Origin: Akkermansiaceae bacterium
GTDB taxonomy: Bacteria; Verrucomicrobiota; Verrucomicrobiia; Verrucomicrobiales; Akkermansiaceae
Reading direction: 5' to 3'
Length of the DNA stretch: 64,000 bases
Assembly: GCA_903837825.1 (NCBI GenBank)
Contig: CAILVZ010000042.1
Location: forward strand, 25,244-89,243
Position numbers and translations under genes: made by a program. Position 1 is the first letter of the stretch; every line of letters starts with the position of its first letter. This document shows positions 31,222 to 51,654 of the stretch, piece after piece. The notes beneath the pieces were generated by a model that worked only from the letters and a program-made list of their open reading frames with translations, made no database searches and was not told where the DNA came from.

Positions 31222-34200
31222 TCAAGGCTGGCTCACCTTGAGATGCATGAACTTCCGAGTCTCGCCGAAGGCCTTGCTGACGGTCGCGGTTTTTTCCTCA
31301 TCGCTACCGAAGTCCACCGAGCTCTCGGTGATGCCAGTGCTGCTCCAAGTCGATAGATCCGTGCTCCACTCGACCGTCCCAATGACGCCCGAGGTGCCCT
31401 TGGCCTTGCGATAGGTCAAGGAGCAAGAACCGTCGCTGGAGCTGTAGGTCGCTTGCGGTACGGCATTGGCCACCGCTGGACTCAGACCCATGAAATACTC
31501 GACGAGATTCGGGAGTCCATCTCCATCAGGGTCTCCGGATGGTGTCGAATTTGACAATCCAGCGTAGCTCGAAATCCACGTGGCAAACGTTGCGTCTGCA
31601 ACCGTCAGCGTTCCATCGACATAATTGAGATCATAGTTGCTCGCGTTGAACGTTCCTCCCGTCGCAGCGCTTGGAGTGATCGAATAAATCCCCGCGGGCG
31701 CATCGGCTGCGGTGCCTCCACTAGCCGTGAGCGTCACGCTGCCAATGGTCTCACTGCCCACGAGCCCGCTCGAGGTGAAGGCCAAACTGCCCGCGCCGAG
31801 TGACAGCACGCTGCCAAGCGACTTGATCTGATTGTTAGCCGTTATGGTCAGAAGCTTGAGGCGCACCTCGCTGATGGCTGTGGGAACGCCGACCGAAGCC
31901 GCACCGGAGCTGGAGCAAATGACATTGCCGGAATACGAGCCTGCCGTGGTTCCCGCAGCGAGCCGGAGATAGACCGGCGTGGCCGCGATTGTCCCAGTGC
32001 CAGCGATCGTTTGAGTCGCAGCGTAATTGGTGGTGGCTGAGGTTTGCGATACTTCAAAGCCCGGCGGCGGCGTCACAAGGATGCCTGCAGTGAGATTTCC
32101 ACCCGAGACCGAAAAACTTGTGGCGGTCGGTGATGCGGTGCCGTAGGTCGTACTGACCGCGCCGAGTGTGCCCAATGTGGCGATGAGAGGGCTGCCAGAG
32201 GATGTGGTGGAGGTGACAACGACATCGTCCAAGAACGCGCGCTTTGCCGTGGTCGCGAACGTGATGGTTGAGTTTGCGGTGCCACCGCTGAAGTTGAGGG
32301 TCTTGGCTTCAAAGTTACCTGACATGTTGCTGGTGTAAGCGACCGACTGAGGAGCCAATCCCGTCGCGGTGATGGTGAGGTTGCCCTCCACCGTCGTCCA
32401 ACCCTTGACTTTGAAGTTTACCGTGAATTTGCCGCCGTTGCCGCTGAGATCCAGAGTCTTGCTGGTGATGGAGCCTCTTGCGCTGTCAGTACCGAGTTTC
32501 ACTGCACCCCCCGCTGAGTAGGCTTTTGCAGAGGCCGTGAAATTGCCATTTGCACTCCATTCGGTCGAAGAAGGGCCGGTTTGTGAGATGCTATTACCGG
32601 CAGTCAGGGAGGAGAAATTCTCGTTCAAGAGGGTGGTCACGCCGCCACCTGAGGGGCTGATGGTAATCGACAGGGCTGCGGTGCCAGTGCCCGCCGAATT
32701 GGTTGCAGAAATCGTAACGCTGCTGGACCCGGCCGCAGTGGGTGTTCCAGAGATCACCCCGTTGGTCGTATTCACGGCCAATCCGCTCGGCAAGCCAGTG
32801 GCTGCGTAGGAGGTTGGCGTGTTGCTCGCGACGATCTGATAGCTGAATGCGGAGCCGGCTATTCCAGTGGCGCTGGTGGCACTGGTGATGGCTGGAGCCT
32901 GAGGGGGACCCGAGAGCGAGTTGCGCGGGTTCGGAGTGGCTGTAGCAAAATCAGCAGCGTTGTTTGCCGTATCGGTCGCACCGCCTCCTAGCCGGAAGAT
33001 CGCGGTGGAAGTGGATGGCGCAGGGGCTGGCGCTCCCTCGTATGCATTTGCGGATCCATAGCCGACAAAATCTTGCATCCCCGCAGTGGCGATCGGCGAA
33101 GAACCCGTAAGCGCTGTGCTCGAGTTTACCAGCGCGACTTTTCCCGTCGTCGCGCTGATCTTGATCGTCCCGCTCACATCAACAGTCGGCAAGGCGATCC
33201 CAGAAGTGCCTGTCGCTAAGCCAACCAAGCAATACTTGCCCGGTGCAATCGATCCGGAAAGTGCGCAAACCGCCCATGTGCTGCCGGCATAGGACGCATA
33301 CTGAACCGACCATCCCGTTAGACTCACGGACGATCCGCTCCGATTGTAGAGTTCGACATAATCACGATTGTAGAGTGCGCCCGTGTTCTCGCCGCCTCCG
33401 AAGATTTGACTGATCAACACTGGGGATTGCAGCACGGTGAAGGGGCTGGTGCTGGTTCCCGTGCCATAGGAGGTAACGACCGAGATCGCACCCGACGTCG
33501 CGGATGCAGGGACCGTTGCGGTGATTTGACCTGCGGAATCCACGAGGAAAGTCGCATCGACCCCATTGAAGCGAACGGACGAGACCTTGACAAAATTGGA
33601 TCCTGTTAGAATCACGAGGGAACCAGTTGCGCCACTCGTCGGGGTGAATGATGAAATCACGGGATCTCCATTTCCCGTGAGAACCGTGATCGTCGCCGAG
33701 CTTGAGGTGGCCGTGGCCGATTCAGTGTCGGTTGCTTGAGCGGTGATGGTGTAAGTGCCGCTGGAGGATGGCGTCCAACTCAGCGAATAAGGCGCAGTGG
33801 TGGCTACTCCGAGCGAAGTGGATCCATTGAAAAACTCGACCTTGCTGATGGTGCCCGGTCCGCCGCCGAGTGCGAGATCGGTTGCCGTTGCAGTTAGGGT
33901 TACTGGATCATTTGGCTTGAAGACATCCCCAGCACTTGGCGATGTCAAAGCGATGGTGGGGGGTGGGTTGCTCTCGACCGAAGTGCCGCCGGTGAGGATC
34001 AACGAATACGTTTGGTTGGCGGTGGTCAAAGTTCCGTCGAGCGAGACCGTGACCGTGTAGGTTCCCGCTTGAGATGGAGCCGCGACATAGACCTGCTCCA
34101 CATTGTCGACGTTGTTTTTTCCCGTGGTCGCTGGGGATGCCATGGCTGCGGTCGTCCAGCTACCCACGAACGGCATGACGTAGGGCTGGTAGAGGGTCGA

Positions 34201-35919
34201 ATTGTTAGGCGCGGTGATTTTTGCGTCGAGATTGTGCTTGAGGTTGGCGGTCCGGCTGTCGGCGGCTGTTTGGGCGGTGCCCGCAGGATCGGTCCAGCAG
34301 ACGGTGGCACGGATCGGGCTGACACCATCCCACGTGAAGGTGTGGGTGTTGGTTTTACTCGCATTGGTGATGGTGCCTTCAATCATTTTAGGCGCAGTCA
34401 AACTGGCCTTGTGCGCGAGGATGAGGTCGCTTGCGGCCTTCACGTTGATGAGGCCCCACCCGTATTTGTAATCTGGGCCAGTCGTGCCGATGTCATCCGC
34501 GGTGTGGATGAGTAGCGCTTTCAAGGTGCTGGCTCGCATCCGCTGTCCCGAAAACTCACGCGCGTAGAGCTGAACCAGAAGGGCGGATGAGCCGAGGGCG
34601 TTCGGCGTGGCCATGCTGGTGCCACTGTAGGTATCATACGTCGTGTTGCTGGTCGCAATGGAAGAGTAGAGGTTGACGCCATTTGCCACGAGATCCGGCT
34701 TGATTCTGCCGTCATCGCACGGTCCGAGACTTGAAAAATTAGCGATCAAGCCGACGGCTGGAGATCGCACTCCACTGGCCACGGCATCATCCACAGCGCC
34801 GATGGTCATGATGTTTTTTGCGAGGCCATCGAACGTGATCGACTGGTAGCCACCTTTCGCGGTGAGCGTGTCCTGTTCATTTCCGGCTGCCCAAAAGGGC
34901 AAATAATAAGGCAAGCTCACCGCTACGGCATCAAGACTGCTCGCCTCCGTCTCATAGCGGCCCATGTCAGTAGTGACGGCGCCCAACCCATAGGAATGAT
35001 TCGAAAGTGGGAGACGCGTGGTGTCGCCTGCGCTGACCGTCCCAGCTGCGGTCATCTCAGCGTAGTCGTTGGTCCACTCGTAGGAGTCGATCGAAATCTT
35101 AGGAGACATGCCCTTGGCAGCCGCCTGAACCCCAGACGCGCCGATCGTCCCAGCCACGTGCGTCGCATGGTCATCGCCGGTCGCGGTGCTGTCCTTCTTG
35201 GTGACGCGGCCCGTAAGCTCTTGGTGGGTACTACGAACCGGCCCGCCATCCCAGATGCCGATTCTCACCCCAGTTCCATTCAAAGTGTAGGGCGCCACGG
35301 CAACGAGATTGGCCCCAGTGGAAATCGCGGCATTCGCATTCAGCGTCGAGCGGTAGAGAGGCTCATCGCCACGGAAATCATAGAGGGTCGAAACCGTGTG
35401 CCCAGGACCATCCTTGCGTAACGGAACACCCAGTTGCCGGGCTTTTTCCATCACCGCATTTTCCTGACGCTCCCCCAACAGACGCATCTCCGCGACCGCT
35501 CTTGCTCGTGCCTCGGGATCAGTCATGTCGACATCCTTGAGGATATTTGGAATAGTTTCACCATTCGCGGCTTGGGCTCGTGTCGACGGCTCGAGCGCAG
35601 GATCACGATCGGTGAGGGTCGCGGACGCGGGTGTCAGCGGGAGAACGGGCCCTGTGGAATTGGCAACTGGTGAATTCGGGTCTGACGCTGAAGCCGTTGG
35701 CGAGCCAGCGGAATCTCCTGGGGTCTTGCCTTTCTCAGACTCCTCCTGCTCCGAGATTTTTGGCGACGAATCAGATGGTGACGCTACCGATTCCGTCTGC
35801 TTGGCCGATGCCGATGCATCCTTTTCACGCACTCCGAGCCAACCAAGCCCCACGATCAGCATGATAAAAAGCAACGCGGCCACGCCACGACGGGCGCGTA
35901 GAGAAAATAAGTGAGCCAT
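31222..35919 (-). CDS. Large secreted multidomain subtilisin-like (S8) serine protease
   Basis: 1565 residues. Membrane signal at 11-29, then a Ser/Asp/Pro-rich linker to about 120. S8 catalytic domain about 200-510: Asp in RIGIWDGGPVRS (about 224), His in DDHATHVAGTIG (about 251), Ser in YSGTSMATPNALG. A jelly-roll P-domain-like part follows (ATVCWTDPAG). Then Ig-like (NPPPTIALTSPSAGDVF), an IPT/TIG-like segment (ISSFTPTSGATGSLVILTG), a lamin-tail domain (RDYVELYNRSGSSVSLTGW), a putative Ig repeat (SGTPTAAGSSSVTISATN), MBG-like repeats and a C-terminal SGDPDGDGLPNLVEYFMG calcium-binding motif. Likely surface or secreted. Confidence 0.88.
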   Translation of the reverse strand: MAHLFSLRARRGVAALLFIMLIVGLGWLGVREKDASASAKQTESVASPSDSSPKISEQEESEKGKTPGDSAGSPTASASDPNSPVANSTGPVLPLTPASATLTDRDPALEPSTRAQAANGETIPNILKDVDMTDPEARARAVAEMRLLGERQENAVMEKARQLGVPLRKDGPGHTVSTLYDFRGDEPLYRSTLNANAAISTGANLVAVAPYTLNGTGVRIGIWDGGPVRSTHQELTGRVTKKDSTATGDDHATHVAGTIGASGVQAAAKGMSPKISIDSYEWTNDYAEMTAAGTVSAGDTTRLPLSNHSYGLGAVTTDMGRYETEASSLDAVAVSLPYYLPFWAAGNEQDTLTAKGGYQSITFDGLAKNIMTIGAVDDAVASGVRSPAVGLIANFSSLGPCDDGRIKPDLVANGVNLYSSIATSNTTYDTYSGTSMATPNALGSSALLVQLYAREFSGQRMRASTLKALLIHTADDIGTTGPDYKYGWGLINVKAASDLILAHKASLTAPKMIEGTITNASKTNTHTFTWDGVSPIRATVCWTDPAGTAQTAADSRTANLKHNLDAKITAPNNSTLYQPYVMPFVGSWTTAAMASPATTGKNNVDNVEQVYVAAPSQAGTYTVTVSLDGTLTTANQTYSLILTGGTSVESNPPPTIALTSPSAGDVFKPNDPVTLTATATDLALGGGPGTISKVEFFNGSTSLGVATTAPYSLSWTPSSSGTYTITAQATDTESATATSSSATITVLTGNGDPVISSFTPTSGATGSLVILTGSNFVKVSSVRFNGVDATFLVDSAGQITATVPASATSGAISVVTSYGTGTSTSPFTVLQSPVLISQIFGGGENTGALYNRDYVELYNRSGSSVSLTGWSVQYASYAGSTWAVCALSGSIAPGKYCLVGLATGTSGIALPTVDVSGTIKISATTGKVALVNSSTALTGSSPIATAGMQDFVGYGSANAYEGAPAPAPSTSTAIFRLGGGATDTANNAADFATATPNPRNSLSGPPQAPAITSATSATGIAGSAFSYQIVASNTPTSYAATGLPSGLAVNTTNGVISGTPTAAGSSSVTISATNSAGTGTAALSITISPSGGGVTTLLNENFSSLTAGNSISQTGPSSTEWSANGNFTASAKAYSAGGAVKLGTDSARGSITSKTLDLSGNGGKFTVNFKVKGWTTVEGNLTITATGLAPQSVAYTSNMSGNFEAKTLNFSGGTANSTITFATTAKRAFLDDVVVTSTTSSGSPLIATLGTLGAVSTTYGTASPTATSFSVSGGNLTAGILVTPPPGFEVSQTSATTNYAATQTIAGTGTIAATPVYLRLAAGTTAGSYSGNVICSSSGAASVGVPTAISEVRLKLLTITANNQIKSLGSVLSLGAGSLAFTSSGLVGSETIGSVTLTASGGTAADAPAGIYSITPSAATGGTFNASNYDLNYVDGTLTVADATFATWISSYAGLSNSTPSGDPDGDGLPNLVEYFMGLSPAVANAVPQATYSSSDGSCSLTYRKAKGTSGVIGTVEWSTDLSTWSSTGITESSVDFGSDEEKTATVSKAFGETRKFMHLKVSQP

Positions 35920-39106: not shown

Positions 39107-40483
39107 ATGATTTCTGGCGCCTCATCTGCTGAGCTTGTCATTGCCGAGCCCAACTCGCATGAAGCCGAGCTACTGGTTCTGTTGTCAGCACAGCGCGGAA
39201 TCCGCGCCGTAGCGGCTGAGGATGGCAAAAGCGCATTGGACCTCATCGACCATTCCACAAAGGCATTTCTATTAGAAATTGAATTGCCAGGTTGGGATGG
39301 CTTTCGCTGCCTTGAATTTCTTACCGCACACCACCCCTCCATTCCTACAATTGTTCTATCTCACACGGATCAAGCGGCTGCAGCCGTAAAAGCCCTGCAG
39401 CTCGGCGCAAGCCACTACCTCACCAAGCCCTTCGATCCCGAGGAACTTTTCTTTGAGGTCTACAGAGCCTTCAAACAGCGCAGTCTGGGGGCACAGGGCA
39501 TGCAGCCAACACCACCTCAAGTGACTGGTGAATCCGATGGCCCTACCATGGTCGCCACATCACCGGCGATGTCTGACCTCATGGAAAAAGCGGAGAAAAT
39601 CGCACCCTTGGATGCTGGGGTCCTTCTGACTGGCGAGAGCGGCGTCGGAAAGGGAATTCTTGCTAGGAAAATCCACGCATTGAGCCCCCGTGCTGACCGA
39701 CCGTTCGTCGTCGTAAGCTGTCCAGCACTGCCCCGAGATCTGCTAGAGAGTGAGTTGTTCGGACATGAGAAAGGCGCTTTCACGGGCGCCATCAAACGGC
39801 GCATCGGCAAGATCGAGTCTGCAGCGGGTGGCACGTTGTTTCTTGATGAGATTGGAGAGCTTCCGATTGATCTGCAGCCCAAGTTGCTCAGCGTGCTGCA
39901 GGACCGCCAATTCCATCGTGTTGGTGGGGAGAAAATCATACATTCTAACATCCGGTTGATTGCAGCGACTAACATCGATTTTTCTGGAAGAATTCGTGAC
40001 GGTTCATTTCGCAAAGACCTCTACTATCGAATTAGTGCTATTCCGTTAGATATTCCACCACTTCGTGACCGCCCAGAAGAGATCGCACCATTGATCCGCC
40101 AAATCCTTGCCGATATCGCTGACCGTCGTAGCACACCTTTGCTCGAACTTTCCCCAGATGCCATGGTGCTCGCAGAGCGCTACCACTGGCCCGGCAACAT
40201 CCGAGAGATGGAGAATATCCTCGAACGAAGCTCAGCGTTTTGCGGCGGCCACACCATCACTGCTGTTGATTTACCCGCCGAGTTTCATTCGCTCCCCAAT
40301 GGCGAGCACCATCAGTCCATCGCCGACCTTGGCAATCGGCCACTGAAGGAGATCGAACGTGCAGCGATCATGCAAAGCTTGAAGTTGTGCAATGGAAATA
40401 AGGCCGAGACCGCGAGGCGGTTGGGCATCAGCGAGAAGAGCATCTATAACAAAATCCGATCCTATCAAGCGATGCCCTCGTGA
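39107..40483 (+). CDS. Sigma-54-dependent regulator, NtrC type, with D-to-E receiver
   Basis: 458 residues. The receiver (1-120) has lost its phospho-acceptor: the usual LLDxxLPGMDG reads FLLEIELPGWDG, with Glu at about 57. The conserved Lys remains in YLTKPFDPEE. AAA+ domain about 145-375: Walker A GESGVGKG, sigma-54 loop GAFTGA, Walker B GGTLFLDEIGEL. Fis-type HTH at the end (NKAETARRLGISEKSIYNKI). No histidine kinase adjacent. It precedes the glycan/export locus; in PEP-CTERM/exopolysaccharide bacteria related regulators (PrsR) control such genes. Probably always active or controlled by amount. Confidence 0.88.
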   Translation: MISGASSAELVIAEPNSHEAELLVLLSAQRGIRAVAAEDGKSALDLIDHSTKAFLLEIELPGWDGFRCLEFLTAHHPSIPTIVLSHTDQAAAAVKALQLGASHYLTKPFDPEELFFEVYRAFKQRSLGAQGMQPTPPQVTGESDGPTMVATSPAMSDLMEKAEKIAPLDAGVLLTGESGVGKGILARKIHALSPRADRPFVVVSCPALPRDLLESELFGHEKGAFTGAIKRRIGKIESAAGGTLFLDEIGELPIDLQPKLLSVLQDRQFHRVGGEKIIHSNIRLIAATNIDFSGRIRDGSFRKDLYYRISAIPLDIPPLRDRPEEIAPLIRQILADIADRRSTPLLELSPDAMVLAERYHWPGNIREMENILERSSAFCGGHTITAVDLPAEFHSLPNGEHHQSIADLGNRPLKEIERAAIMQSLKLCNGNKAETARRLGISEKSIYNKIRSYQAMPS

Positions 40484-40573: not shown

Positions 40574-41989
40574 TCATTCTAAAATACCACCGCCAAGAGA
40601 TTTGAAAAGTCTCACAGATTGGGCGGCCAAACGGCCCCGAGTTGCCGCCACTTCCGATTCTGCGTCCAGCGCGTCCTGCTTCACCACAATCAGATGGTGG
40701 AGATCTAGCAAGCCTGAACGATACGACTCAGCCACTAGGTCTGCAGTGATCTGATAGTCCTTGGACGCATCAGTCAGCTTTTCCAAGCGCTTTCTTTCGA
40801 GTTGGATGGCTGCGAGTGACTGCTCAACCTCGGATACCGATTTTAGGACGACTTCTTCGTACGTGGCGAGATCTGCCTCCAGCCCTGCCTCCTGCTCCTT
40901 AATCCGCGCGACGTCTGCACTTGAGTGAAACAACCTAAGGCGCAGCGCTGGTCCCAGTCCAAGGTCATTGCGTAGCCCTTGGCTTACGCCACCTGTGACG
41001 TCCGCTTCATAAGTTACCGCGCCTAGAAGTGACAAGCTCGGATAGAGGTTCGCTGTTGCGATGCCGATCCGCGCGCACTGCACTTGGAGCATGCGCTCCG
41101 CCCGGCGGATATCGGGCCTCGACCGCAGTAAATCTGCAGGTACTCCAAGGTCCAAACGTGCAGGGGGATTCGGAATCAATCCTCCTAACAACACGAGCGT
41201 CTCAACCTGCTTTGGATAAATGCCAAGCAAAAGCGAAAGCTGGTGGATGAGTGCAACCCGCTCCATTTCAATCCCGGGCACCTTGGACTCCTGAACCCTA
41301 AGTCGGGCAGATGCCTCTGATCCATCCATCTTAGATGCTAGACCGAGATCTTGCTGCACCTTGGCCAGTCGAGCGATCTCATCATAGGACCTCACGCCCT
41401 CCTTGGCGAGCTTGAGCCGCTCTTCCACCGATCGGAGCGCGATGTATTGCAGCGCAACTTCAGCACTGATGATCACATGAGCATCCCTCCACGCCTCGAT
41501 GGTCGCCTGATCATTTGCGGTAGCTGCTTCCTCTTGGCGATGGATGCCACCAAAAAAATCTAACTCCCAGCCGACATCAAGCTGTCCAAGTTGACTTTGC
41601 GATGTCCCCTTTCCCCACTGAATTCCTCGCTCATCGAAGGTGCCTAGCCCATAGCGGTTTTTGCCAAATAAATCAGCATGGGGAAACAAGGTCGCGTGGA
41701 TCATCTGGTGTTGTTGCCACGCTTGTTGGATGCGAGCCCTTGCTCGTTTCAGGTCCGCATTGTTGCGTTTTGCAGTGGCAATCAACCGACTCAAACACGG
41801 ATCTTTGAATGCGGCCCACCACTCCTCTGCTGCGGTGTGCGCTGCGCTCCGCTCATGCTCCATCACCCGTGTCCATGCATCAGGCACAACCATTTGCGGT
41901 GGTTGATAGTCTGGACCCACTGCCCTACATCCCAGCAACATCATCGGAACGATGAGGAGCCAGCTGAGGGTAGAATCTGACCACTGCAT
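40574..41989 (-). CDS. TolC/OprM-family outer-membrane channel lipoprotein
   Basis: 471 residues. Signal peptide with lipobox LLGC followed by the NodT/OprM start RAVGPDYQPPQMVVPDAW. Two outer-membrane-efflux repeats with long coiled coils, for example DLKRARARIQQAWQQHQ and ADLATYEEVVLKSVSEVEQSLAA, and the internal RPDIRRAERMLQ motif typical of the family. It forms a trimeric channel across outer membrane and periplasm. The HlyD-like adaptor it would need is encoded in the divergent operon at 45488. Confidence 0.88.
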   Translation of the reverse strand: MQWSDSTLSWLLIVPMMLLGCRAVGPDYQPPQMVVPDAWTRVMEHERSAAHTAAEEWWAAFKDPCLSRLIATAKRNNADLKRARARIQQAWQQHQMIHATLFPHADLFGKNRYGLGTFDERGIQWGKGTSQSQLGQLDVGWELDFFGGIHRQEEAATANDQATIEAWRDAHVIISAEVALQYIALRSVEERLKLAKEGVRSYDEIARLAKVQQDLGLASKMDGSEASARLRVQESKVPGIEMERVALIHQLSLLLGIYPKQVETLVLLGGLIPNPPARLDLGVPADLLRSRPDIRRAERMLQVQCARIGIATANLYPSLSLLGAVTYEADVTGGVSQGLRNDLGLGPALRLRLFHSSADVARIKEQEAGLEADLATYEEVVLKSVSEVEQSLAAIQLERKRLEKLTDASKDYQITADLVAESYRSGLLDLHHLIVVKQDALDAESEVAATRGRLAAQSVRLFKSLGGGILE

Positions 41990-42214: not shown

Positions 42215-43237
42215 ATGAACACCGCCAGCCCCCAAGACGTTCCCATACGACCCACCGTTAGTTTCATCGTCCCTGCGATGAACGAGGAATCAACTTTGCT
42301 TGAGCTATACCATGGGATCAAAACCAATATCACCGGCCACGCTCGCGAGTGGGAGATTATCTTCATCGATGATGGCTCGACCGACAATACATGGTTAGAA
42401 ATGACCCGAATTGCGGAGATGTATCCAGCGGAAGTGCGCGCCCTACGGTTCCGGCGGAATCGTGGCAAGGCGGATGCCCTTGCGCTTGGATATGAATCTG
42501 CAACCGGTGAAATCGTCTTCACGATGGATGCAGACCTTCAGGATGACCCTACAGAAATTCCACGATTCATCGAAAAAATCCAGCAAGGCAACGACATTGT
42601 GTCTGGCTGGAAGCGTTGTCGCTACGACCCGTGGCACAAGGTTTTACCCAGTCGGCTGTTCAATGCCGTCTTGAGCCGCTGGGTTAAGGTGCCATTGCAC
42701 GACCACAACTGTGGATTTAAGGCCTATCGCCACGAAGTGGTGAAATCATTGCCGATGTATGGTGACATGCATCGCATGGTGCCGTCGCTCGCTTCCTATG
42801 AGGGCTTCCAAACGGTAGAGATCCCAGTCAAACACCACCGCCGCGCCCACGGCGTCAGCAAATATGGATGGTCACGGCTATTCACTGGCTTCTTCGACAC
42901 CGCGACGGTTGGGTTAATGCTGCGATGGAGGGAGAAGCCAATGCAGCTTGTTGGCATGTTCGCAATGACGTTCGGATTGTTCGGCATCGGCCTCCTTCTG
43001 CTCGGTGGGTGGATGTGGCTCGTCGACTCAAGTGTCTCCGGTTGGCTATTCAACAGCTCCTGCATCTTCCTGTGTTCCGCAGCGCTAGGAATCCTCCAGG
43101 GATTCGCAATGGAACACCGCGTTTACTACGGAAAACTTGCAGATCGTGCGCCGGTACCTTGCGAACAAGCCGGCGGAGTCGATTTGGAAATCTCGGCAAT
43201 CGGCAACGAAGAATCCCATTCAATTCGAAAGGTCTAA
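42215..43237 (+). CDS. Glycosyltransferase family 2, membrane-anchored (DPM/ArnC-like)
   Basis: 340 residues. GT2 motifs: SFIVPAMNEESTLLELY, IIFIDDGSTDNTW and FTMDADLQDDPTEIP (DxD metal site). The acceptor region has NCGFKAYRHEVV and MHRMVPSLA. Two C-terminal helices (LVGMFAMTFGLFGIGLLLLGG, SSCIFLCSAALGILQGF) anchor it, as in ArnC/DPM-type enzymes that transfer sugar from a nucleotide donor to polyprenyl phosphate. First gene of a same-strand run of six; its lipid-linked product could feed the GT39-like protein at the end. Confidence 0.88.
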   Translation: MNTASPQDVPIRPTVSFIVPAMNEESTLLELYHGIKTNITGHAREWEIIFIDDGSTDNTWLEMTRIAEMYPAEVRALRFRRNRGKADALALGYESATGEIVFTMDADLQDDPTEIPRFIEKIQQGNDIVSGWKRCRYDPWHKVLPSRLFNAVLSRWVKVPLHDHNCGFKAYRHEVVKSLPMYGDMHRMVPSLASYEGFQTVEIPVKHHRRAHGVSKYGWSRLFTGFFDTATVGLMLRWREKPMQLVGMFAMTFGLFGIGLLLLGGWMWLVDSSVSGWLFNSSCIFLCSAALGILQGFAMEHRVYYGKLADRAPVPCEQAGGVDLEISAIGNEESHSIRKV

Positions 43238-43258: not shown

Positions 43259-44497
43259 ATGAAATCAACAACCACACAGGCATCGAAAAAAATCCTCCGT
43301 ATCGGCGTTCTCACCTCAACCTATGCACGCACGCACGAAGACACCCAAGTTCCTTGGATGCGCGAACTTAATAACCGACTCGTCGATCAGGTTGAGCAAC
43401 TTGTCGTCATGGCGCCCTCCTATCGATGCCTACGAAGCCACGAAATTGACGGCCTCAAAGTCGAGCGATTTCGATACGCCCCTTCCCGAGTGGAAGCGCT
43501 CACCCATGATGAGGGAGCACCGAATAAAACCCGACGGCTCGGCCCAAAGCTCCTCGCCGTGCCTTACCTGTTCTGTGGCATGGTTGCCGTCTTCTTCTGG
43601 TGCATCAAGCATCGCATCAATGTCTTGCATGTCCACTGGCCGTTCCCACATGGACTCTGGGCAGTCTTGCCTCAACGGTTGTTAGGGGTTCGCGTGGTCT
43701 CGTTTAGCCATGGGGCAGAGCTTGCAATGGCGAGAAGATGCCCACGGGTCCATCGAGTCCTTGGTTGGCTTCTCCGGGCATCGGACGAACGTCTAGCGAA
43801 TAGCTCTCACACCGCAACCGAAGTTGAGTTGGTTTCCGGATTGTCAGCGAAGGTGATTCCATACGGTGCAAGCATCGAGGTGAAAGAGACTGTGGCGGCA
43901 CCCAATAAACTAGGAGAACCTGAGTTGTTGTTGTTCTGCGGCAGACTCATTCAGCGCAAGGGGATTGATGTATTGCTACGCGCCATGCCTGCGATTTTGC
44001 GCAAGCGGGATGTACGACTTGTCATCACCGGTGAGGGCGATCGCAAGAATGAGTGGATGCAACTCGCCTCCGAGCTTGACCTTGGTTCCGTGGTTGAATT
44101 TGCGGGATTTGTGAGCAACGAAGAACTTGCATCACTCTATCAACAATGTTCAGCGTACGTTCACCCCGCGATCTTCGACGATCAAGGTGACACCGAAGGT
44201 CTCGGCGTGGTTCTAGTCGAGGCACTCTCCTATGGGTGTCCCGTTGTCGCATCTGCTGTTGGTGGGATCATCGATGTCATCTCCCATGAGAAGACAGGCT
44301 TGCTAGTTCCGGAAAAAGACTGCGAGGCGCTCGCAGATGCGGTGGTTCGCGTCCTCGAAGACAAGAAGTTAGCAATTAAGCTGGGAGCTCAAGGGTTGAT
44401 GCACGTTCAAGAGTTTTTCCATTGGGACAATATCGCGGCCAACACCCGTGAGGTGTGGCATTCAGTCCTCAACCTGCCAGAGCCCAAGGCCGCCTAA
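43259..44497 (+). CDS. Glycosyltransferase family 4
   Basis: 412 residues, GT-B fold. N-terminal acceptor half begins RIGVLTSTYARTHEDTQVP and includes HVHWPFPHGLWAVL. The C-terminal donor half has LLLFCGRLIQRKGIDVLLRAMP and the EGLGVVLVEALSYGCPVVASAVGGIIDVI segment that binds the nucleotide sugar. Retaining transfer is typical of GT4. It begins 21 bases after the GT2 gene. Sugar and acceptor unknown. Confidence 0.88.
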   Translation: MKSTTTQASKKILRIGVLTSTYARTHEDTQVPWMRELNNRLVDQVEQLVVMAPSYRCLRSHEIDGLKVERFRYAPSRVEALTHDEGAPNKTRRLGPKLLAVPYLFCGMVAVFFWCIKHRINVLHVHWPFPHGLWAVLPQRLLGVRVVSFSHGAELAMARRCPRVHRVLGWLLRASDERLANSSHTATEVELVSGLSAKVIPYGASIEVKETVAAPNKLGEPELLLFCGRLIQRKGIDVLLRAMPAILRKRDVRLVITGEGDRKNEWMQLASELDLGSVVEFAGFVSNEELASLYQQCSAYVHPAIFDDQGDTEGLGVVLVEALSYGCPVVASAVGGIIDVISHEKTGLLVPEKDCEALADAVVRVLEDKKLAIKLGAQGLMHVQEFFHWDNIAANTREVWHSVLNLPEPKAA

Positions 44498-44520: not shown

Positions 44521-45483
44521 ATGAAAAAGCGCTTTAAACAATTCATCTTCGGAATTGCCATTGCAACTGCCTGCATTGCTCTCGGAAAAATGTGCAATCA
44601 AGTCGTCAGTGTGCTCCGCACCGTGACTTGGACATGGGTCGTGTTCGCAGTGACAGGACTCACGCTCTATCAGTTACTCAACGCTAGCATTTGGAGAGAT
44701 GTCATTGCCGGCATTGGCGCGGAAGTACCACGCGGTCATGCGATGCGCGTCTGGATTGAGAGCGAATCGATGAAATGGCTCCCTGGCGGCATTTGGGGCT
44801 ACGGCTCACGAGTCGTCAATGCGCGCAAGCTTGGGATCAGACCCGAGCTTGCATCAGCCTCGCTCGCCATCGAGCTATTGCTCACGATTGTGGCATGGTG
44901 CACGGCTGCCTTGTGGATTCTGCCGACCGACAGAGGAAAATATCTGATCGATTATCTATCGGATCGATTTTTACAGTTTCGCGTTTTCCCATGGTCACTC
45001 GCAGGCGGTGCTCTTCTCGTGCTCATTCTATTGCGAGCCGTGAAGATGGACTTTACGAAGCTAACATGGGCTCGCCGTTTTCTGGGATCGTTTCATACGC
45101 TGGATTGGAAGCCGCAGTGGCTGCTCCGCTCGGCGGTCTCTTATTGGGGACTCTGTCTGTTGAATGGCACCCTGCTATGGCTTGTTACATGGGCGATACC
45201 TGGGCTAACCGTGCCATGGCCAGCCATCATCGGAGCAGGAGGAATCGCGTGGTTGGCAGGCTTCTTCGCGATTGGGGTTCCAGGCGGGATTGGCGTCCGC
45301 GAAGCTGCACTTGTGGGAATGCTGCACCCATACGGACCAGTGGAAGCCGCGGTAGCCGCTGCCATGGTTTTCCGAGCCGCACAGATGGTCGCAGAACTAC
45401 TCGCCCTTGGAGGATCCTTATTCTATGGGTGGAGGAAAAACCAAAACGCTCTCGCTATCAGTGATGCATCTGTGATAAGCTGA
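44521..45483 (+). CDS. LPG-synthase-TM/UPF0104-like membrane protein
   Basis: 320 residues with about seven or eight helices. The middle carries WIESESMKWLPGGIWGYGSRV and the later part GIPGG-type AIGVPGGIGVREAALVGML, both hallmarks of the lysylphosphatidylglycerol-synthase transmembrane superfamily (UPF0104). Members in glycan operons are often thought to flip or modify lipid-linked sugars. It starts 23 bases after the GT4 gene. Confidence 0.78.
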   Translation: MKKRFKQFIFGIAIATACIALGKMCNQVVSVLRTVTWTWVVFAVTGLTLYQLLNASIWRDVIAGIGAEVPRGHAMRVWIESESMKWLPGGIWGYGSRVVNARKLGIRPELASASLAIELLLTIVAWCTAALWILPTDRGKYLIDYLSDRFLQFRVFPWSLAGGALLVLILLRAVKMDFTKLTWARRFLGSFHTLDWKPQWLLRSAVSYWGLCLLNGTLLWLVTWAIPGLTVPWPAIIGAGGIAWLAGFFAIGVPGGIGVREAALVGMLHPYGPVEAAVAAAMVFRAAQMVAELLALGGSLFYGWRKNQNALAISDASVIS

Positions 45484-45487
45484 AGGA

Positions 45488-46945
45488 ATGATGTTCGGAA
45501 AGTTTCGTATACTTTCAAGGTCCCTTGACGGGTCATTCTCGTATTTAGTCCAACTTGCCAGAGAGAACCGCGGCTTGCTTCTCGGAGTGGTCGCATCTGG
45601 CGTGTTTTGTCTCATTCTGATCGCCTCAGTGATCCTGCCTGCATGGCGAAACCCCCGTTCGAAGTTTTATGGCTCAGGCCTCGGTTTCCCAGCGGTCATG
45701 CGGAAGCTAGGTAAGCCACTGCCAGCCGATGTCGCCGTCGTAAAACGCGCGCCATTTAGCCGTTGGATTATGGGCGAGGGCACCTATGCGAGCCTGCCAT
45801 TGCTTGCCCCCGTCATCCCGATGGCGACGGTCAAAGAAGTTCTAACAAAACCCGGTGATCGCGTCACCACGGGTCAGGTTCTTGCGCGCCTCGATACAAC
45901 CCTTGCCACTACCAAACTGGAATCGGCAATTCTTGCCATGGAGACGGCCAAGGCCGAACTCGCTCGGGTACGTGTGGGGTCAGCTTATGTACTCGCTCAG
46001 GAACGTCCGGCAATGGAGAAAGTAAATCTAACTGCAGAAGAACAACTCCTTTCTCAAAAAGGGGAAAAAGTCACTAAATTCCGTGAGGCATTTGGCCGTG
46101 GCGCAGTGTCGCGCACAGCCCTCCTCGTGGTTGAGGGAGAATTCACCGAGGCCACCCGCATGATGGAGAAGGCACGATTGCAAGTGGCGATGTCGGAGAA
46201 GGGTGTCGTGGAAAGCATCCAAATTGCAGAAAATGCAGTGAAGGACGCCGAGGAGTTGGTCTCACATCGCCGTCATGAGTTAGATGACTACGACGTGCGA
46301 TCGCCAGGGAATGGCATCGTTGAGCGCATCCTCATCAATGCGGGAGAGTACAATCAAGATGGTGGCAAGCCTGGGTTTGTGATTGCATCGGGTAGTTGGT
46401 TTGAGGCCTATTTTGATCAGGCCGATTTCGGAGATATCCAACAGAATCTAATGGCAGAAGTCCATTTGGAGGCTTTTCCTGGCAAGTCATTCAATGGAAA
46501 AATCAATCTAATCGTCCCAGTCGTATCGTTCAACCAAGGTGGTCCGGAGATCTCACGCCCGCTTCGTCCGCGTGGCAGCGGTGCCGCTGAATGGGCCGCG
46601 ACCTTTCGGACACAGATCCACTTTGAGTCAGATCCAAGTCAGGTCGCGCTTGGGATGACTGGATTCGCGCGGGTGCATATTGAACGCGAGAGCCTCGCGA
46701 TTCCTCGGGGCGCCCTTGTGTCTGTCTCCGCTGGCAGCGGCTTTGTCTACATTGTCGGTCACGATGGCCGATGGGCAACACGCATCGTCGGAGTGGGAAT
46801 GATCGAGGACAACAAAGCAGAGATCCTCTCCGGACTCAGTGAGGGTGACCATGTGATCGTGCGCGGTCACTGGTCGCTCAAGGCAGGTGACGACATCCAT
46901 GTCGACCGAGTTTGGGATTCATTCACCGCTCCGGAGAAATTGTAA
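45488..46945 (+). CDS. HlyD/RND-type periplasmic adaptor protein
   Basis: 485 residues. One N-terminal anchor (LLLGVVASGVFCLILIASVI). Lipoyl-like halves PVIPMATVKEVLTKPGDRVTTGQVLARLDT and YDVRSPGNGIVERILINAGEY flank a long coiled coil (LESAILAMETAKAELARV to MSEKGVVESIQIAENAVKDAEELVSHRR). A beta-barrel follows (FEAYFDQADFGDI). It would dock on a TolC-like channel, supplied by the gene at 40574. No ABC, MFS or RND pump is adjacent. An AAGGA ribosome-binding site precedes the ATG, 4 bases after the upstream stop. Confidence 0.87.
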   Translation: MMFGKFRILSRSLDGSFSYLVQLARENRGLLLGVVASGVFCLILIASVILPAWRNPRSKFYGSGLGFPAVMRKLGKPLPADVAVVKRAPFSRWIMGEGTYASLPLLAPVIPMATVKEVLTKPGDRVTTGQVLARLDTTLATTKLESAILAMETAKAELARVRVGSAYVLAQERPAMEKVNLTAEEQLLSQKGEKVTKFREAFGRGAVSRTALLVVEGEFTEATRMMEKARLQVAMSEKGVVESIQIAENAVKDAEELVSHRRHELDDYDVRSPGNGIVERILINAGEYNQDGGKPGFVIASGSWFEAYFDQADFGDIQQNLMAEVHLEAFPGKSFNGKINLIVPVVSFNQGGPEISRPLRPRGSGAAEWAATFRTQIHFESDPSQVALGMTGFARVHIERESLAIPRGALVSVSAGSGFVYIVGHDGRWATRIVGVGMIEDNKAEILSGLSEGDHVIVRGHWSLKAGDDIHVDRVWDSFTAPEKL

Positions 46946-46948
46946 TCG

Positions 46949-48289
46949 ATGCGAGTGTTTTGCTCCATACTCAGCATATTAGGTGGGCTTGCACTCATGG
47001 CAATTGGCCTACTCAAACCGTGGTATGCTTTTCCATTAGATTTTGATTCTAACCAAACGCTCGTCCTGCGAGATGCGTCCATAACGATTTGGTGGAAGGG
47101 CGGCTGTTTGTTGATCGCTGGAGTCTCGATGAGCTGGGCCAAAATAAAAAATAGCACATTAGGGCTCCGCGGCATCCTTACGGTTGGATTCGCCGTGATG
47201 TTGCCCCTTGCCTTATGGTATCCACAGGCGGTGATAATGCGCGATGTGGCATTGTCAGGAGATGCAGCGTGGCTACAGCAACAATTTGACACACTCACAT
47301 GGCTGGGTGGAGATATTCCTCGGGGTCACTCTGAACGTCCGGTACCCAACGGATTCGGCATATGGGCGCAAGAGCCACCCCACCGGCTCGCGGCATTTCG
47401 TCCGCCATTGTTCGGATCATTTTCGTTAGGCATCGCCGAGGTGCCTGACTTGATCTGGTGGCTTGGGTATAACCCTCCATTCAGCCAGTTTGTCACGCGA
47501 GGATGGATCTTCTTTGTGTTAGGGATTTTGCTCACACTCGTAGGCTGCTTCGGCTGGGACCAATATCATCAGAGGAACGGCCAGCGCCGATCCTTGTTGC
47601 ATCGCACGGCGCTTGCACTAACGGGCTCCGCCGCAATCGTGCTGGCACTCGCGATTTTGCCGGTGATTCTCGGTGGGCGGGCACTGCGGCGCGCGAGGGA
47701 TCTGACTCAGTCATGGCAATCGCAGCCTGCGTTGGAAAGCTTAGATGCTGCGGGAAGATGGATGCCTGCGTTGCGCTTTGACACGGGTGTGGTCCTTCAA
47801 CGTGGTGCGTTGCAACGGCAACTTGGAAATTCCAACCTACCCGCCGCAAGACTCCACGAGGCGTGGCTTCTCTCGGATCAAGGATACAGTGCGCGTGCAA
47901 CGGCAATTATTGATGATCTCTTGGTGCATCCGCAATCTCTCGATTCGAATGAGCGCCGCGAGGCCTTGCGAGCATTGCTTAGGAGCGCGATTGATGAGCT
48001 GAATTCATCTCATCTCGCCGATGCGCGCCGACATCTGGATATTCTGTTAGACCAGCAACCAGTGTGTCTCCAAGGTTGGTTTCACTCACAGCTAGTCGCC
48101 CTTGAGAGTGGGGATCTAGGGGCGAATCGGCAGGCCGCGCAGCGCGTTGAGGCGTTGTCAAAAGCCTATTTACGGATGGAATCCCGAGGAATTGTGGCCG
48201 CAAGCCAATGGATGCTTGCACAGGGAGAGCTACAATCAGGGAATCCCGAATCGACGGTCACCGCACGGCAAAGGGCACAAGGACGATGA
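46949..48289 (+). CDS. Membrane protein with soluble helical C-terminal domain
   Basis: 446 residues. About five helices in the first 260 residues (SILSILGGLALMAIGLL, GCLLIAGVSMSW, ILTVGFAVMLPLALWY, WIFFVLGILLTLVGCFGW, TGSAAIVLALAILPVILGG). The C-terminal 180 residues look like tetratricopeptide-type helix pairs (AARLHEAWLLSDQGYSARATAIIDDLL, LADARRHLDILLDQ). No family recognised. Starts 3 bases after the adaptor gene and overlaps the GT39-like gene by ATGA. A scaffold role in the glycan/export machinery is a guess. Confidence 0.62.
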   Translation: MRVFCSILSILGGLALMAIGLLKPWYAFPLDFDSNQTLVLRDASITIWWKGGCLLIAGVSMSWAKIKNSTLGLRGILTVGFAVMLPLALWYPQAVIMRDVALSGDAAWLQQQFDTLTWLGGDIPRGHSERPVPNGFGIWAQEPPHRLAAFRPPLFGSFSLGIAEVPDLIWWLGYNPPFSQFVTRGWIFFVLGILLTLVGCFGWDQYHQRNGQRRSLLHRTALALTGSAAIVLALAILPVILGGRALRRARDLTQSWQSQPALESLDAAGRWMPALRFDTGVVLQRGALQRQLGNSNLPAARLHEAWLLSDQGYSARATAIIDDLLVHPQSLDSNERREALRALLRSAIDELNSSHLADARRHLDILLDQQPVCLQGWFHSQLVALESGDLGANRQAAQRVEALSKAYLRMESRGIVAASQWMLAQGELQSGNPESTVTARQRAQGR

Positions 48290-51200
48290 CGCATCGAATC
48301 CATATTCGCTATCGGTTTTGGCCAGCCATCTGGGTGGGTCTGGCAGTTGCGTTGGCTGCTCTTCTAGCAGGTGAATGGTGGCAGGGATCCGATCCACCGC
48401 TGCGGAATGCCAAGTGGCCTGCCAATGCGCGCTGGATTCGTACTGACGATGATCTACAATCGACGGCTTGCTTCCGACATGATTTCGAACTGACTGAATC
48501 TAGCAGTCATGCATGGGTGAGGGTCGCGGCACAAGGTGGCTTTGAGCTCACGGTAAATGGCGATCCGGTGGGTGGATGGACATTTTGGCGTCCGACCCGA
48601 CCATTTCAAAATGGCCTTACCGCATCAGGGCAGCGGATTTCAAACTCCGATCCGGCAGTGGCATTGAATTTTCCGCGAGAATATCAATGGGAGAGCCATG
48701 CCAATGCAAAGACCCCAGTCTTTTTTGACATACGCCCCTATCTTCGAGTTGGCCGTAATGCAATCTGCATCGAGACCGAAGCTCGCAGGCCAATGCCGGC
48801 AATCATACTCGCTGGGGAGATTCATCTCGTGAGTGGGAAGATCGTGCCTCTGGCGACCAACCTCGCATGGCTCGCAGAACCCGTGCCCATCGGCTGCACC
48901 CAAGAGGAGTGGGTGCGCCCAGAGGCTTGGATGAGCGGATGGCGCACCGCTAAGGAATGGAACCGTGGCCCGCGAATGGGTGCGCAGATCGTACCCATGG
49001 GCACATTTGAAGAACCTTTTGCTGGTAAATGGATCGGACTTTCACCACGGGCAGAGCAATGCGCTGGTTTTGAGGACCTCGTGCTGCGATGGCATCAAGA
49101 GACGTTTCCCTACGATGCCTTTCTGCGAGTCGGTTCTTCAACTCCTTACGCGATTTTTCTCAACGGGCATGCGGTGAGCTCCTCTGGACGTGCTAGGAAT
49201 CGAATGAATGACGGTGGCTGGCTTGTCACTTGGGATGCACGCCGCCCATTAGCAACATTGCCAGTTCTGTTAGATCCTGATGAGACGGATGATCCATTTG
49301 CAGGACATCGGTTTGAGTCACCACGCCACGGTAATCCGACGGCCAATGATTTTAAGCGCCATGAGAACAGCTTGAATCGCACAAAGGATAAGCCGAGGGC
49401 AACAGGGGCAAGTGATTCATCCGCTGAAACTGAAGTAATGGGCAGAACGCCAGATCCCTACGGATATGATGAAGAGGCCAATCTAACACCACCTTTGGAG
49501 GTCGCAAGAAGTCGGAATCAAGAGTCATTTCTGGGTTACGGAATCACTGGGCTCATTCTGCGCGGAGAGAATGAGCTTCGCATCCGCTTGGTCCCAGAGC
49601 CAGATACCGGCTACCATCGAAACGAGACAAGAAGGGTCGCTGCTGACCTCGCTGTTAGTAAAATTGTTGGGTCCAAGACAGTGTTTGCGACCGGCGCGAC
49701 GGCGTGGCGAGTCGAGGATGATCAGCATGTATCGAGTGCCTGTGCCATCGACGCGGGAGGGAATTCTAACAAACTTCCACCATTGATTTTTGTTGGCCAT
49801 GGTTGGCCGAGTCAGCCATGGAAATTGCTCGCAGCATGCATCGGATTCGCAGTCGGACTGATCATGGTACACCTTCGTGTTCCTGGCCGATGGGTCGTCC
49901 ATTGCACGTGGTTTTGTGGCTCGGTGCTGGCGGCATTCGCACTGCGTGCCTCATTTCTTGAGCGTTCTGAATCACTTTGGGTCCGCAGCGACCACTGGAC
50001 AGGCTGGGTGCTTGGTGGAGCGTGCCTTGTGGCAGCCGCAGCCCCCGTGAGCCTTCGGCAAATCGTAAAAGTCCGCAGTCACGGAGGTGGCAAGCGGATG
50101 CTGGTGCTGATCGTCCTGCTGACCATCACCTTCTTTGTTAGAGCATGGCAGGTCGATGCCCAACCGATCGATGATGACGAATTCGCATCGATCCAAGGGA
50201 CCTTTGGAATTGTGCACACCTGGGTGCCTGTGATTGGCAAGGGCATTTGGTACACTCGCAGCCCGCTCTATCACTATGCCGCAGCGGCTGCTGCTTGGAT
50301 CGGGGGAACCAATCTCTGGACTCTTCGTTTGTTCTCTGTCTTCACCGCAGTGGCAACCGGCGCAACTCTCTGGGCTCTTGCCCGCTCCTGTTTTCGTAAC
50401 CACTGGATCTCGGTGGGGGCCCTCGCATTGTTTGGATTGCACCCCTATCTTATTTTCACGGCACACATTGCAAGATTCTATCAACAGCAGCAATTGCTGG
50501 TGATTCTCACCTACCTTTGTTTTATCCGCGGATTCGTTCAAACGGGTGGTCCACGTTGGATCGTCGCAACGGTGTTTGTCTTTGGTGCCGCCCTACTCAG
50601 CCAAGAAATCAGTATTAGCCTAGCACCAGGTTTATTCATAACCTATCTGCTATTTGGTCGCGATTTGCCCTGGCGGTGGGAAGTGAAGGCCGGATTGGCG
50701 GGGATCATCGTTGCGGCTCTGTTCGTCATTGATATCGCCGCGTTCCAAATGAAATGCCTCACATGGACCGCAGGGGTGTCGCCGAATGTTGAGGCTACCA
50801 TTGCTCCTAACTTTTGGGAGCTTGGAAATCTAACAGCGATGTTTATTGGTTACTCGCGCCTTCACTTGCTTGCCAGTGCATTTTTGCCATTCAGTCTACT
50901 TGCCGCAGTTCGGCGTGGCGATCGGGCCGTCCTAGCTCTTCATTCGTTGCTCTTTACAGGAATCCTTTCCATCAACTTGTTGATCACCTCGGTGAGTTTT
51001 CGCTATCAATTCGCACTCATTCCATTGTGGATTTTGCTGTGTGTGCACGGAATCCATGAAGGGTCACGGGTGGTTGCACTTACGCTGAAATCATCGGGCG
51101 CCCTACGGCGAACGGCGCCAGCACTTGCTGCGGTAGCGGGCATCGCGGTGATTTGCAGTTGGAGTCCGTGGCGGATTTTAGGATCATACCATGAGACGCT

Positions 51201-51654
51201 GTTGGGTGACCCCAACACACCTTTGCGCTACGTCCATGCGAGCCTGCGGCCTAACGACAAGGTGATGATCACGGAGCCACATCCCCATGCGGCTCGGATG
51301 GAATTGGGCAAGGTGGATTACGACCTAGCGCTACCGATTCTCTATGACTTTGCCTACTGGGATGATGGCGTCTTACGTGACCGGAATGGTGACGCGAAGG
51401 TGATCAACCGATTGGCTCAGCTTCAGGATCTCTTTTCGGCGGACGAGCGGATCTGGATCGTCATTAATCGGGAGAAGCTTCGGTCCCGCACCCGCAACCT
51501 GCGGTGGGAATATCCTGGCGCACGGGAGGAATATTTTATCCGCCGGAACTGCCAGCTCGTATTCCGCAGTTATTTATGGCACGTTTATCTTTGGGATCGC
51601 AACGCCCAGCGCTACCACGCCTTTCGGAGTGAGCCCGACGAGTGGTCCGAGTGA
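48286..51654 (+). CDS. GT39-like membrane glycosyltransferase with large extracytoplasmic N-terminal region
   Basis: About 1122 residues from ATG 48286. First an anchor (FWPAIWVGLAVALAALLAG), then about 480 residues of soluble beta-rich sequence with two jelly-roll-like, glycosidase-associated patterns (WVRVAAQGGFELTVNGDPVGGW and DAFLRVGSSTPYAIFLNGHAV). After two further helices comes a GT39/PMT-like core with the acidic QPIDDDEFASIQ loop, RSPLYHYAAAAAAWIGG, and about ten helices. A soluble C-terminal part closes the protein. GT39 enzymes use polyprenyl-phosphate sugars, which the GT2 gene could make. The combination is unusual. Confidence 0.72.
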   Translation: MTHRIHIRYRFWPAIWVGLAVALAALLAGEWWQGSDPPLRNAKWPANARWIRTDDDLQSTACFRHDFELTESSSHAWVRVAAQGGFELTVNGDPVGGWTFWRPTRPFQNGLTASGQRISNSDPAVALNFPREYQWESHANAKTPVFFDIRPYLRVGRNAICIETEARRPMPAIILAGEIHLVSGKIVPLATNLAWLAEPVPIGCTQEEWVRPEAWMSGWRTAKEWNRGPRMGAQIVPMGTFEEPFAGKWIGLSPRAEQCAGFEDLVLRWHQETFPYDAFLRVGSSTPYAIFLNGHAVSSSGRARNRMNDGGWLVTWDARRPLATLPVLLDPDETDDPFAGHRFESPRHGNPTANDFKRHENSLNRTKDKPRATGASDSSAETEVMGRTPDPYGYDEEANLTPPLEVARSRNQESFLGYGITGLILRGENELRIRLVPEPDTGYHRNETRRVAADLAVSKIVGSKTVFATGATAWRVEDDQHVSSACAIDAGGNSNKLPPLIFVGHGWPSQPWKLLAACIGFAVGLIMVHLRVPGRWVVHCTWFCGSVLAAFALRASFLERSESLWVRSDHWTGWVLGGACLVAAAAPVSLRQIVKVRSHGGGKRMLVLIVLLTITFFVRAWQVDAQPIDDDEFASIQGTFGIVHTWVPVIGKGIWYTRSPLYHYAAAAAAWIGGTNLWTLRLFSVFTAVATGATLWALARSCFRNHWISVGALALFGLHPYLIFTAHIARFYQQQQLLVILTYLCFIRGFVQTGGPRWIVATVFVFGAALLSQEISISLAPGLFITYLLFGRDLPWRWEVKAGLAGIIVAALFVIDIAAFQMKCLTWTAGVSPNVEATIAPNFWELGNLTAMFIGYSRLHLLASAFLPFSLLAAVRRGDRAVLALHSLLFTGILSINLLITSVSFRYQFALIPLWILLCVHGIHEGSRVVALTLKSSGALRRTAPALAAVAGIAVICSWSPWRILGSYHETLLGDPNTPLRYVHASLRPNDKVMITEPHPHAARMELGKVDYDLALPILYDFAYWDDGVLRDRNGDAKVINRLAQLQDLFSADERIWIVINREKLRSRTRNLRWEYPGAREEYFIRRNCQLVFRSYLWHVYLWDRNAQRYHAFRSEPDEWSE

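Follow-up and report, generated by a model that had tools for sequence, protein, structure and literature searches.

A predicted GT-C glycosyltransferase with two N-terminal GH78/CBM67-type sandwiches in a conserved gene cluster of Verrucomicrobiota and Planctomycetota

Introduction

The mycobacterial enzymes EmbA, EmbB, EmbC and AftD are GT-C glycosyltransferases with extracytoplasmic jelly rolls, and in EmbB the jelly roll lies between TM1 and TM2 (PMC7305291). The CBMs of EmbC, AftD and the GT136 enzyme bind acceptor polysaccharide, and that of GT136 binds substrate yet is dispensable for activity (PMC11127046). The GT136 system (ORF12 of Citrobacter youngae) combines a polyprenyl-phosphate sugar synthase and a MATE-type flippase with a GT-C enzyme whose C-terminal, immunoglobulin-like CBM binds the unmodified polysaccharide; no membrane-fusion or TPR partner has been described for it. 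ArnT (PDB 5f15/5ezm), which modifies lipid A, has a GT-C core without N-terminal sandwiches. In the alginate synthase complex, a glycosyltransferase is combined with a membrane-fusion-protein domain (Alg44) and a periplasmic TPR protein, AlgK (PMC3815931).

Here we describe a conserved GT-C architecture within a defined gene cluster, found in a 64,000-nucleotide stretch of DNA from an Akkermansiaceae bacterium (the window). The architecture is real and apparently undescribed: a literature search, whose coverage leaves out most subscription journals, found no description of it. Two findings go beyond an earlier note on this DNA, namely that the protein belongs to a conserved gene cluster and that a loop in its first sandwich is conserved like the catalytic loop. 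To our knowledge, the surface polysaccharides of Planctomycetota and Verrucomicrobiota are largely uncharted genetically, and we offer this conserved, sharply bounded gene set as a candidate for them.

Domain organization of the GT-C protein

The GT-C gene is one intact open frame that encodes 1122 residues with no internal stop, and it begins at an ATG that shares bases with the stop codon of the preceding gene (ATGA at 48286-48289). It comprises the following features:

48286..51654 (+), whole gene: N-terminal anchor, two GH78/CBM67-type sandwiches, GT-C core and C-terminal alpha/beta domain, 1122 aa (PMT_2 profile, AlphaFold2, full-length relatives)
48319..48384 (+), signal-anchor helix, aa 12-33 (predicted helix, hydropathy)
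48403..48885 (+), sandwich 1, aa 40-200, Bac_rhamnosid_N/CBM67-like (profile and predicted structure)
48586..48696 (+), sandwich 1 loop, aa 101-137, motif WRPTRPFQNGL..GQR..FPREYQW (conservation; low model confidence)
49021..49800 (+), sandwich 2, aa 246-505, of which aa 299-411 are a large insert modelled with low confidence (AlphaFold2, Foldseek)
49816..50064 (+), extra helices before the core, aa 511-593, with a near-invariant ERSE (E559 and E562 invariant; alignment, model)
50077..51171 (+), GT-C (PMT_2/ArnT-like) membrane core, aa 598-962 (profile, fold match)
50170..50190 (+), presumed catalytic loop (first outer loop), aa 629-635: an invariant DDDE and then a conserved (Y/F)AS (alignment; ArnT parallel)
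51172..51651 (+), C-terminal alpha/beta domain, aa 963-1122 (AlphaFold2, conservation)

The AlphaFold2 model of the whole protein, built from a 17-member alignment (mean pLDDT 70.8, pTM 0.72), resolves into two sandwiches, a core of helices and an alpha/beta domain at the C terminus. The sandwich folds for which the earlier note had proposed a structure prediction are thus present. About 475 residues separate the anchor helix from the next predicted helix, which bears out the unusually large N-terminal region of about 480 residues that the note had described. The two patterns it named, FELTVNGDPVGGW (about aa 86-98) and YAIFLNGHAV (about aa 288-297), each contain one asparagine, N91 and N293 respectively, that is invariant among 34 sequences. 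Both of its jelly-roll-like segments are modelled as sandwiches, except that about 113 residues of the second (aa 299-411) form a low-confidence insert rather than sandwich. Modelling of the N-terminal region with 33 sequences likewise gave confident sandwich cores and two low-confidence inserts; across the two models the sandwich cores are mostly at pLDDT 70-97.

PMT_2 is the sole Pfam match of the window protein, and a single-sequence search against solved structures returned no match; the N-terminal assignment is therefore drawn from relatives and from structure. Sandwich 1 is recognized by the Bac_rhamnosid_N profile: of the 17 full-length relatives 8 match (best E 5.8e-8), and of the 33 N-terminal regions 20 do (best E 1.5e-10), the window copy alone remaining sub-threshold (E 0.024). 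When a profile of the N-terminal region was searched against PDB sequences it found SaRha78A (E 1.8e-10). In a Foldseek search of the PDB with the whole protein, SaRha78A is the top match, followed by ArnT; for the N-terminal region the top matches are SaRha78A (E 5.7e-17), the Pleurotus ostreatus lectin (E 2.2e-13), which also has two such domains, and other GH78 enzymes. TM-scores of the N-terminal matches, taken over the full query, are low, since two domains and long inserts enter a single comparison. The sequence profile independently agrees with the fold search on SaRha78A-type sandwiches. Of the two families suggested for comparison, GH78 fits far better; GH2 enzymes reach just about E 1e-3 to 1e-2 in the fold search, and GH2, weaker in both profile and fold searches, was rejected as the nearest sandwich. 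The proposal that GH78-type sandwiches precede an ArnT/PMT-like core is accordingly backed by independent profile and structure searches. Unlike SaRha78A, with its catalytic (alpha/alpha)6 barrel, the protein contains no GH78 or GH2 hydrolase barrel: the sandwiches are followed by the membrane core.

Fold and profile similarity to the CBM67 module of SaRha78A is present, and the ligand site has diverged. Residues D179, N180 and W203 of SaRha78A, which we take to be the calcium and aromatic ligand residues of CBM67, are aligned with Q83, G84 and A141 in the window protein, which has therefore lost them. Among the 34 sequences, D83, N84 and W141 are kept together in one deep relative only (L067), D83 with W141 also in two others (L062 and L080), and W141 in 11. 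An adjacent acidic pair in a CBM67-type fold also appears in PMC11512411. The loop at aa 101-137 has a mean conservation of 0.74, with 9 of its 37 positions invariant; this equals the value for the catalytic loop (0.74), whereas the surrounding sandwich strands reach 0.51-0.54. Such conservation exceeds what is expected of a passive binding module.

The membrane core of the window protein matches PMT_2 (PF13231) at E 7.5e-10 and 39.7 bits, against a curated cut-off of 26.1, and this profile matches all 17 relatives. By comparison, PF02366 (PMT, GT39) matches just 2 of the 17 relatives and gives no match to the window protein. In the fold search the core comes closest to ArnT (5f15, E 5.1e-9, target TM 0.58), and structures of PglB, OST and Pmt4 are also found. 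Residues D629, D630, D631, E632 and R658 are invariant in 34/34 sequences; D629-E632 and R658 parallel the acidic pair D55/E56 and the phosphate-binding K85 of ArnT (PMC7801869), the positions being matched by motif and fold. No alignment of the sequence to ArnT was significant, and a profile of the core finds no match among sequences of solved structures even to E 10; the link to ArnT is therefore drawn from PMT_2, the loop motif and the fold. By profile, acidic loop residues and fold the protein is a PMT_2/ArnT-like GT-C enzyme, and the label "GT39-like" used earlier is too specific. The C-terminal domain is the best conserved of all domains, with 67% mean column identity.

The N-terminal arm occupies the same place as the jelly roll of EmbB. 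The protein differs from the Emb and AftD enzymes in having two tandem GH78/CBM67-type sandwiches and an alpha/beta C-terminal domain free of jelly rolls, and in its gene cluster and phyla; no sequence match to Emb or AftD was found.

Distribution of relatives

Matches to the protein were found in 24 of 387 genomes of the same order, 22 of them strong and most over the full length, and these fall in 14 of 50 genera. In this sample the window genome is the only member of its genus with a clear copy. When one genome for each of 84,980 species was scanned for the pattern, 37 loci were recovered; they belong to Verrucomicrobiota and Planctomycetota, apart from one in a MAG labelled Cloacimonadota and one in a MAG without a label. 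The search for the same architecture in other phyla, which the earlier note had recommended, thus shows a full-length fusion conserved in two phyla; the three alignments (A1-A3) span the whole length of the protein. In a midpoint-rooted tree the Verrucomicrobiota copies split from the rest with a support of 0.97, and the fusion is therefore old. Searched by profile, 388 genomes of the phylum yielded full-length copies in this order alone; elsewhere in the phylum each half is found without the other, the GT-C part in proteins of about 500-600 aa and the sandwich part in large frames. The protein had no match in a plasmid collection.

A conserved gene cluster

The GT-C gene is the last of a compact run of six genes: the five before it are spaced by 3 to 23 bases, and the fifth overlaps the GT-C gene itself. 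The run and its immediate neighbours, in window order, are:

39107..40483 (+), NtrC-type response regulator, recurrent neighbour (profile, locus survey)
40574..41989 (-), TolC/NodT-type outer-membrane channel protein, divergent (profile)
42215..43237 (+), GT2, closest to ArnC/PgfS (polyprenyl-phosphate sugar transferases), with two C-terminal hydrophobic helices (profile, hydropathy)
43259..44497 (+), GT4 glycosyltransferase (profile)
44521..45483 (+), LPG_synthase_TM membrane protein, possibly a flippase (profile, locus survey)
45488..46945 (+), membrane-fusion protein of the HlyD/RND adaptor type, in every locus (profile, locus survey)
46949..48289 (+), obligate neighbour with about five TM helices and a TPR-like C-terminal part (profile, hydropathy, co-occurrence)

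The membrane-fusion, TPR and GT-C genes occur together in all 32 loci with at least 3 kb upstream, across two phyla. The remaining genes of the run are more variable (LPG_synthase_TM in 24/32 loci, GT2 in 18/32, GT4 in 16/32); gene calls were made by a longest-frame script, for which small genes are uncertain. On the Verrucomicrobiota side, 13 of the 15 loci with long flanks have the TolC-type gene; on the Planctomycetota side, all 10 loci whose flanks suffice lack it. The NtrC-type regulator shows the reverse bias (4/15 and 9/10, respectively); the Verrucomicrobiota-side counts include the Cloacimonadota-labelled and unlabelled MAGs where flanks suffice. Linkage of the TPR and GT-C genes is also evident among the 387 genomes, where both are strong in the same 21; in the two genomes with one gene alone (G271 and G356), that gene is at a contig end. 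The TPR match of the window protein is weak (E 0.0031, below cut-off) and clearer in relatives. The GT2 matches ArnC at E 3.7e-42, but its 144.5 bits compare with an equivalog cut-off of 529.

The recurrent membrane partner is the LPG_synthase_TM protein rather than a GtrA/SMR or MATE flippase. Alginate-type secretion has a GT2 membrane synthase as polymerase, whereas the membrane enzyme always linked to the membrane-fusion protein here is the GT-C enzyme. When the unmatched neighbours were clustered, no recurrent ABC or RND transporter that might be a missing pump was found, only regulators and one secreted family. The locus resembles the alginate complex (Alg8, Alg44, AlgK, AlgE) in its membrane-fusion and TPR components, the latter weak in the window copy. 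It differs in having a GT-C core where Alg8 is a GT2 synthase and a TolC-type protein in the place of AlgE, and no PilZ domain was detected in the partner proteins scanned.

Each of the two obligate partners carries a conserved segment of its own. In the membrane-fusion protein, about aa 348-373 contain a nearly invariant GGPEI.RP.RPRG.G..EW.ATF, here unlinked to known adaptors. The TPR protein has, at about aa 108-122, a conserved WLQQQ(H/F)D.LTWLGGD between helices, which could serve for contacts or ligand binding.

Proposed function and alternatives

The constant linkage of the GT-C gene to two export-type genes suggests a so far undescribed apparatus for building, and probably exporting, a sugar polymer of the cell surface. 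In the working model that we favour, and hold to be about as likely as not, a GT-C enzyme on the outer face builds or decorates a surface glycan held by the sandwiches, and this activity is coupled to an export frame. Family knowledge suggests the individual steps. The ArnC-like GT2 of the cluster would load polyprenyl phosphate with sugar to give the presumed donor. A presumed donor of this kind and a nearby ArnC-like GT2 recall ArnT, and a putative synthase, a possible flippase and a GT-C enzyme with CBM-like modules recall the GT136 system. The LPG_synthase_TM protein, or another flippase, would turn the charged lipid over. On the outer face of the cytoplasmic membrane, the sugar would be passed by the core's DDDE loop to a glycan that the two CBM67-like sandwiches hold; the sandwiches may bind this acceptor as the CBMs of comparable GT-C enzymes do. 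The TPR membrane protein and the membrane-fusion protein would form a frame that receives the product and couples sugar transfer to passage through the periplasm, joined, where present, by the TolC-type channel. The product may have an exopolysaccharide or biofilm role. The model thus joins the logic of CBM-bearing GT-C enzymes (Emb, AftD, GT136) to that of the periplasmic frame of alginate export. Several points weigh against it: the CBM67 residues are lost in the window copy, both conserved inserts are of low model confidence, the TolC-type gene is missing from the Planctomycetota-side loci with enough flank, the TPR match of the window copy is weak, the window's own genome yielded no H-NOX, and a sigma-54 promoter scan did no better than chance.

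A more ambitious version, which we put forward only tentatively, is a new type of surface-glycan assembly machine of Planctomycetota and Verrucomicrobiota in which the lectin-armed GT-C enzyme replaces a pump or synthase as the inner-membrane partner of the membrane-fusion protein, so that transfer and export occur in one complex. If the GT-C enzyme truly is that partner, this would be one more means by which lipid-linked sugar transfer is tied to envelope export. The architecture is, in addition, a clean test case for the function of CBM-like arms in GT-C enzymes, a question posed by GT136 (PMC11127046).

It is possible, if rather doubtful, that the sandwiches bind no sugar and instead hold the TPR and membrane-fusion proteins, loop 101-137 being a protein-protein contact. 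Such docking would fit the disappearance of the CBM67 residues from most members while the loop stays conserved like an active site, the low confidence of the loop when modelled alone, as expected of a segment that folds on a partner, and the strict co-occurrence with the TPR protein. However, the conservation of the loop fits substrate binding equally, the full ligand triad of L067 and the W141 of 11 sequences imply that a ligand site existed in part of the family, and the CBMs of comparable GT-C enzymes bind acceptors (PMC11127046).

The enzyme could also be a protein O-glycosyltransferase that modifies secreted or surface proteins, its sandwiches gripping the growing protein-linked glycan. 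The PMT_2 core, the Pmt and OST structures among the fold matches, and the presence in four loci of a large secreted protein next to the cluster are in keeping with this reading, which we nevertheless consider unlikely: no target protein is common to most loci, the GT4, membrane-fusion and TolC-type genes are not expected for protein O-mannosylation, and PF02366 is rare among the relatives.

Still less probable is an ArnT-like modifier of lipid A or a glycolipid, with the membrane-fusion and TolC-type genes belonging to an unrelated efflux system that is nearby by chance. Although the core most resembles ArnT in fold and ArnC is the nearest match of the GT2, chance proximity does not explain fusion-protein and TPR genes in every locus of two phyla, no pump gene recurs in the loci, and ArnT lacks the sandwiches. 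Finally, the fusion of two genes by an assembly error, a possibility raised in the earlier note, has nothing in its favour except the unusual length of the frame and is refuted by the same full-length frame in about 30 other assemblies, including isolates of Haloferula rosea, Rubritalea profundi, Roseibacillus persicicus and R. ishigakijimensis.

Regulators and other neighbours

Among the unmatched neighbours of the cluster, those that recur encode an H-NOX protein, kinases of the hybrid or PAS type, and Hpt proteins. H-NOX (haem-NO-binding) genes were located at L032:3798-4337, L036:677-1207, L040:5604-6137 and L044:3847-4386, near genes for a PAS/hybrid kinase, an NtrC-type regulator and Hpt proteins beside the cluster, and similar frames occur in both phyla. 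In Vibrio fischeri the syp biofilm polysaccharide is under H-NOX/nitric-oxide control (PMC12369376), and the H-NOX, hybrid kinase, Hpt and response-regulator genes seen here resemble that arrangement. By analogy, this suggests that the cluster may be controlled by nitric oxide; H-NOX was not found in the window's own genome. Sigma-54 control through the adjacent NtrC-type regulator was also considered and is unsupported: the window contains 21 matches where 20.2 are expected, no better than chance, and the relatives show just two scattered upstream matches.

The large secreted protein beside the cluster in four loci (L055:11388-13811, with similar frames in L075, L077 and L081) carries DUF6923/DUF4114 in L055, whose genome was scanned as L038, and could be a surface partner or acceptor. 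In the window itself, a 1565-residue frame upstream of the cluster (31222-35919, - strand) has a signal-like start and, by eye, a subtilisin-like region.
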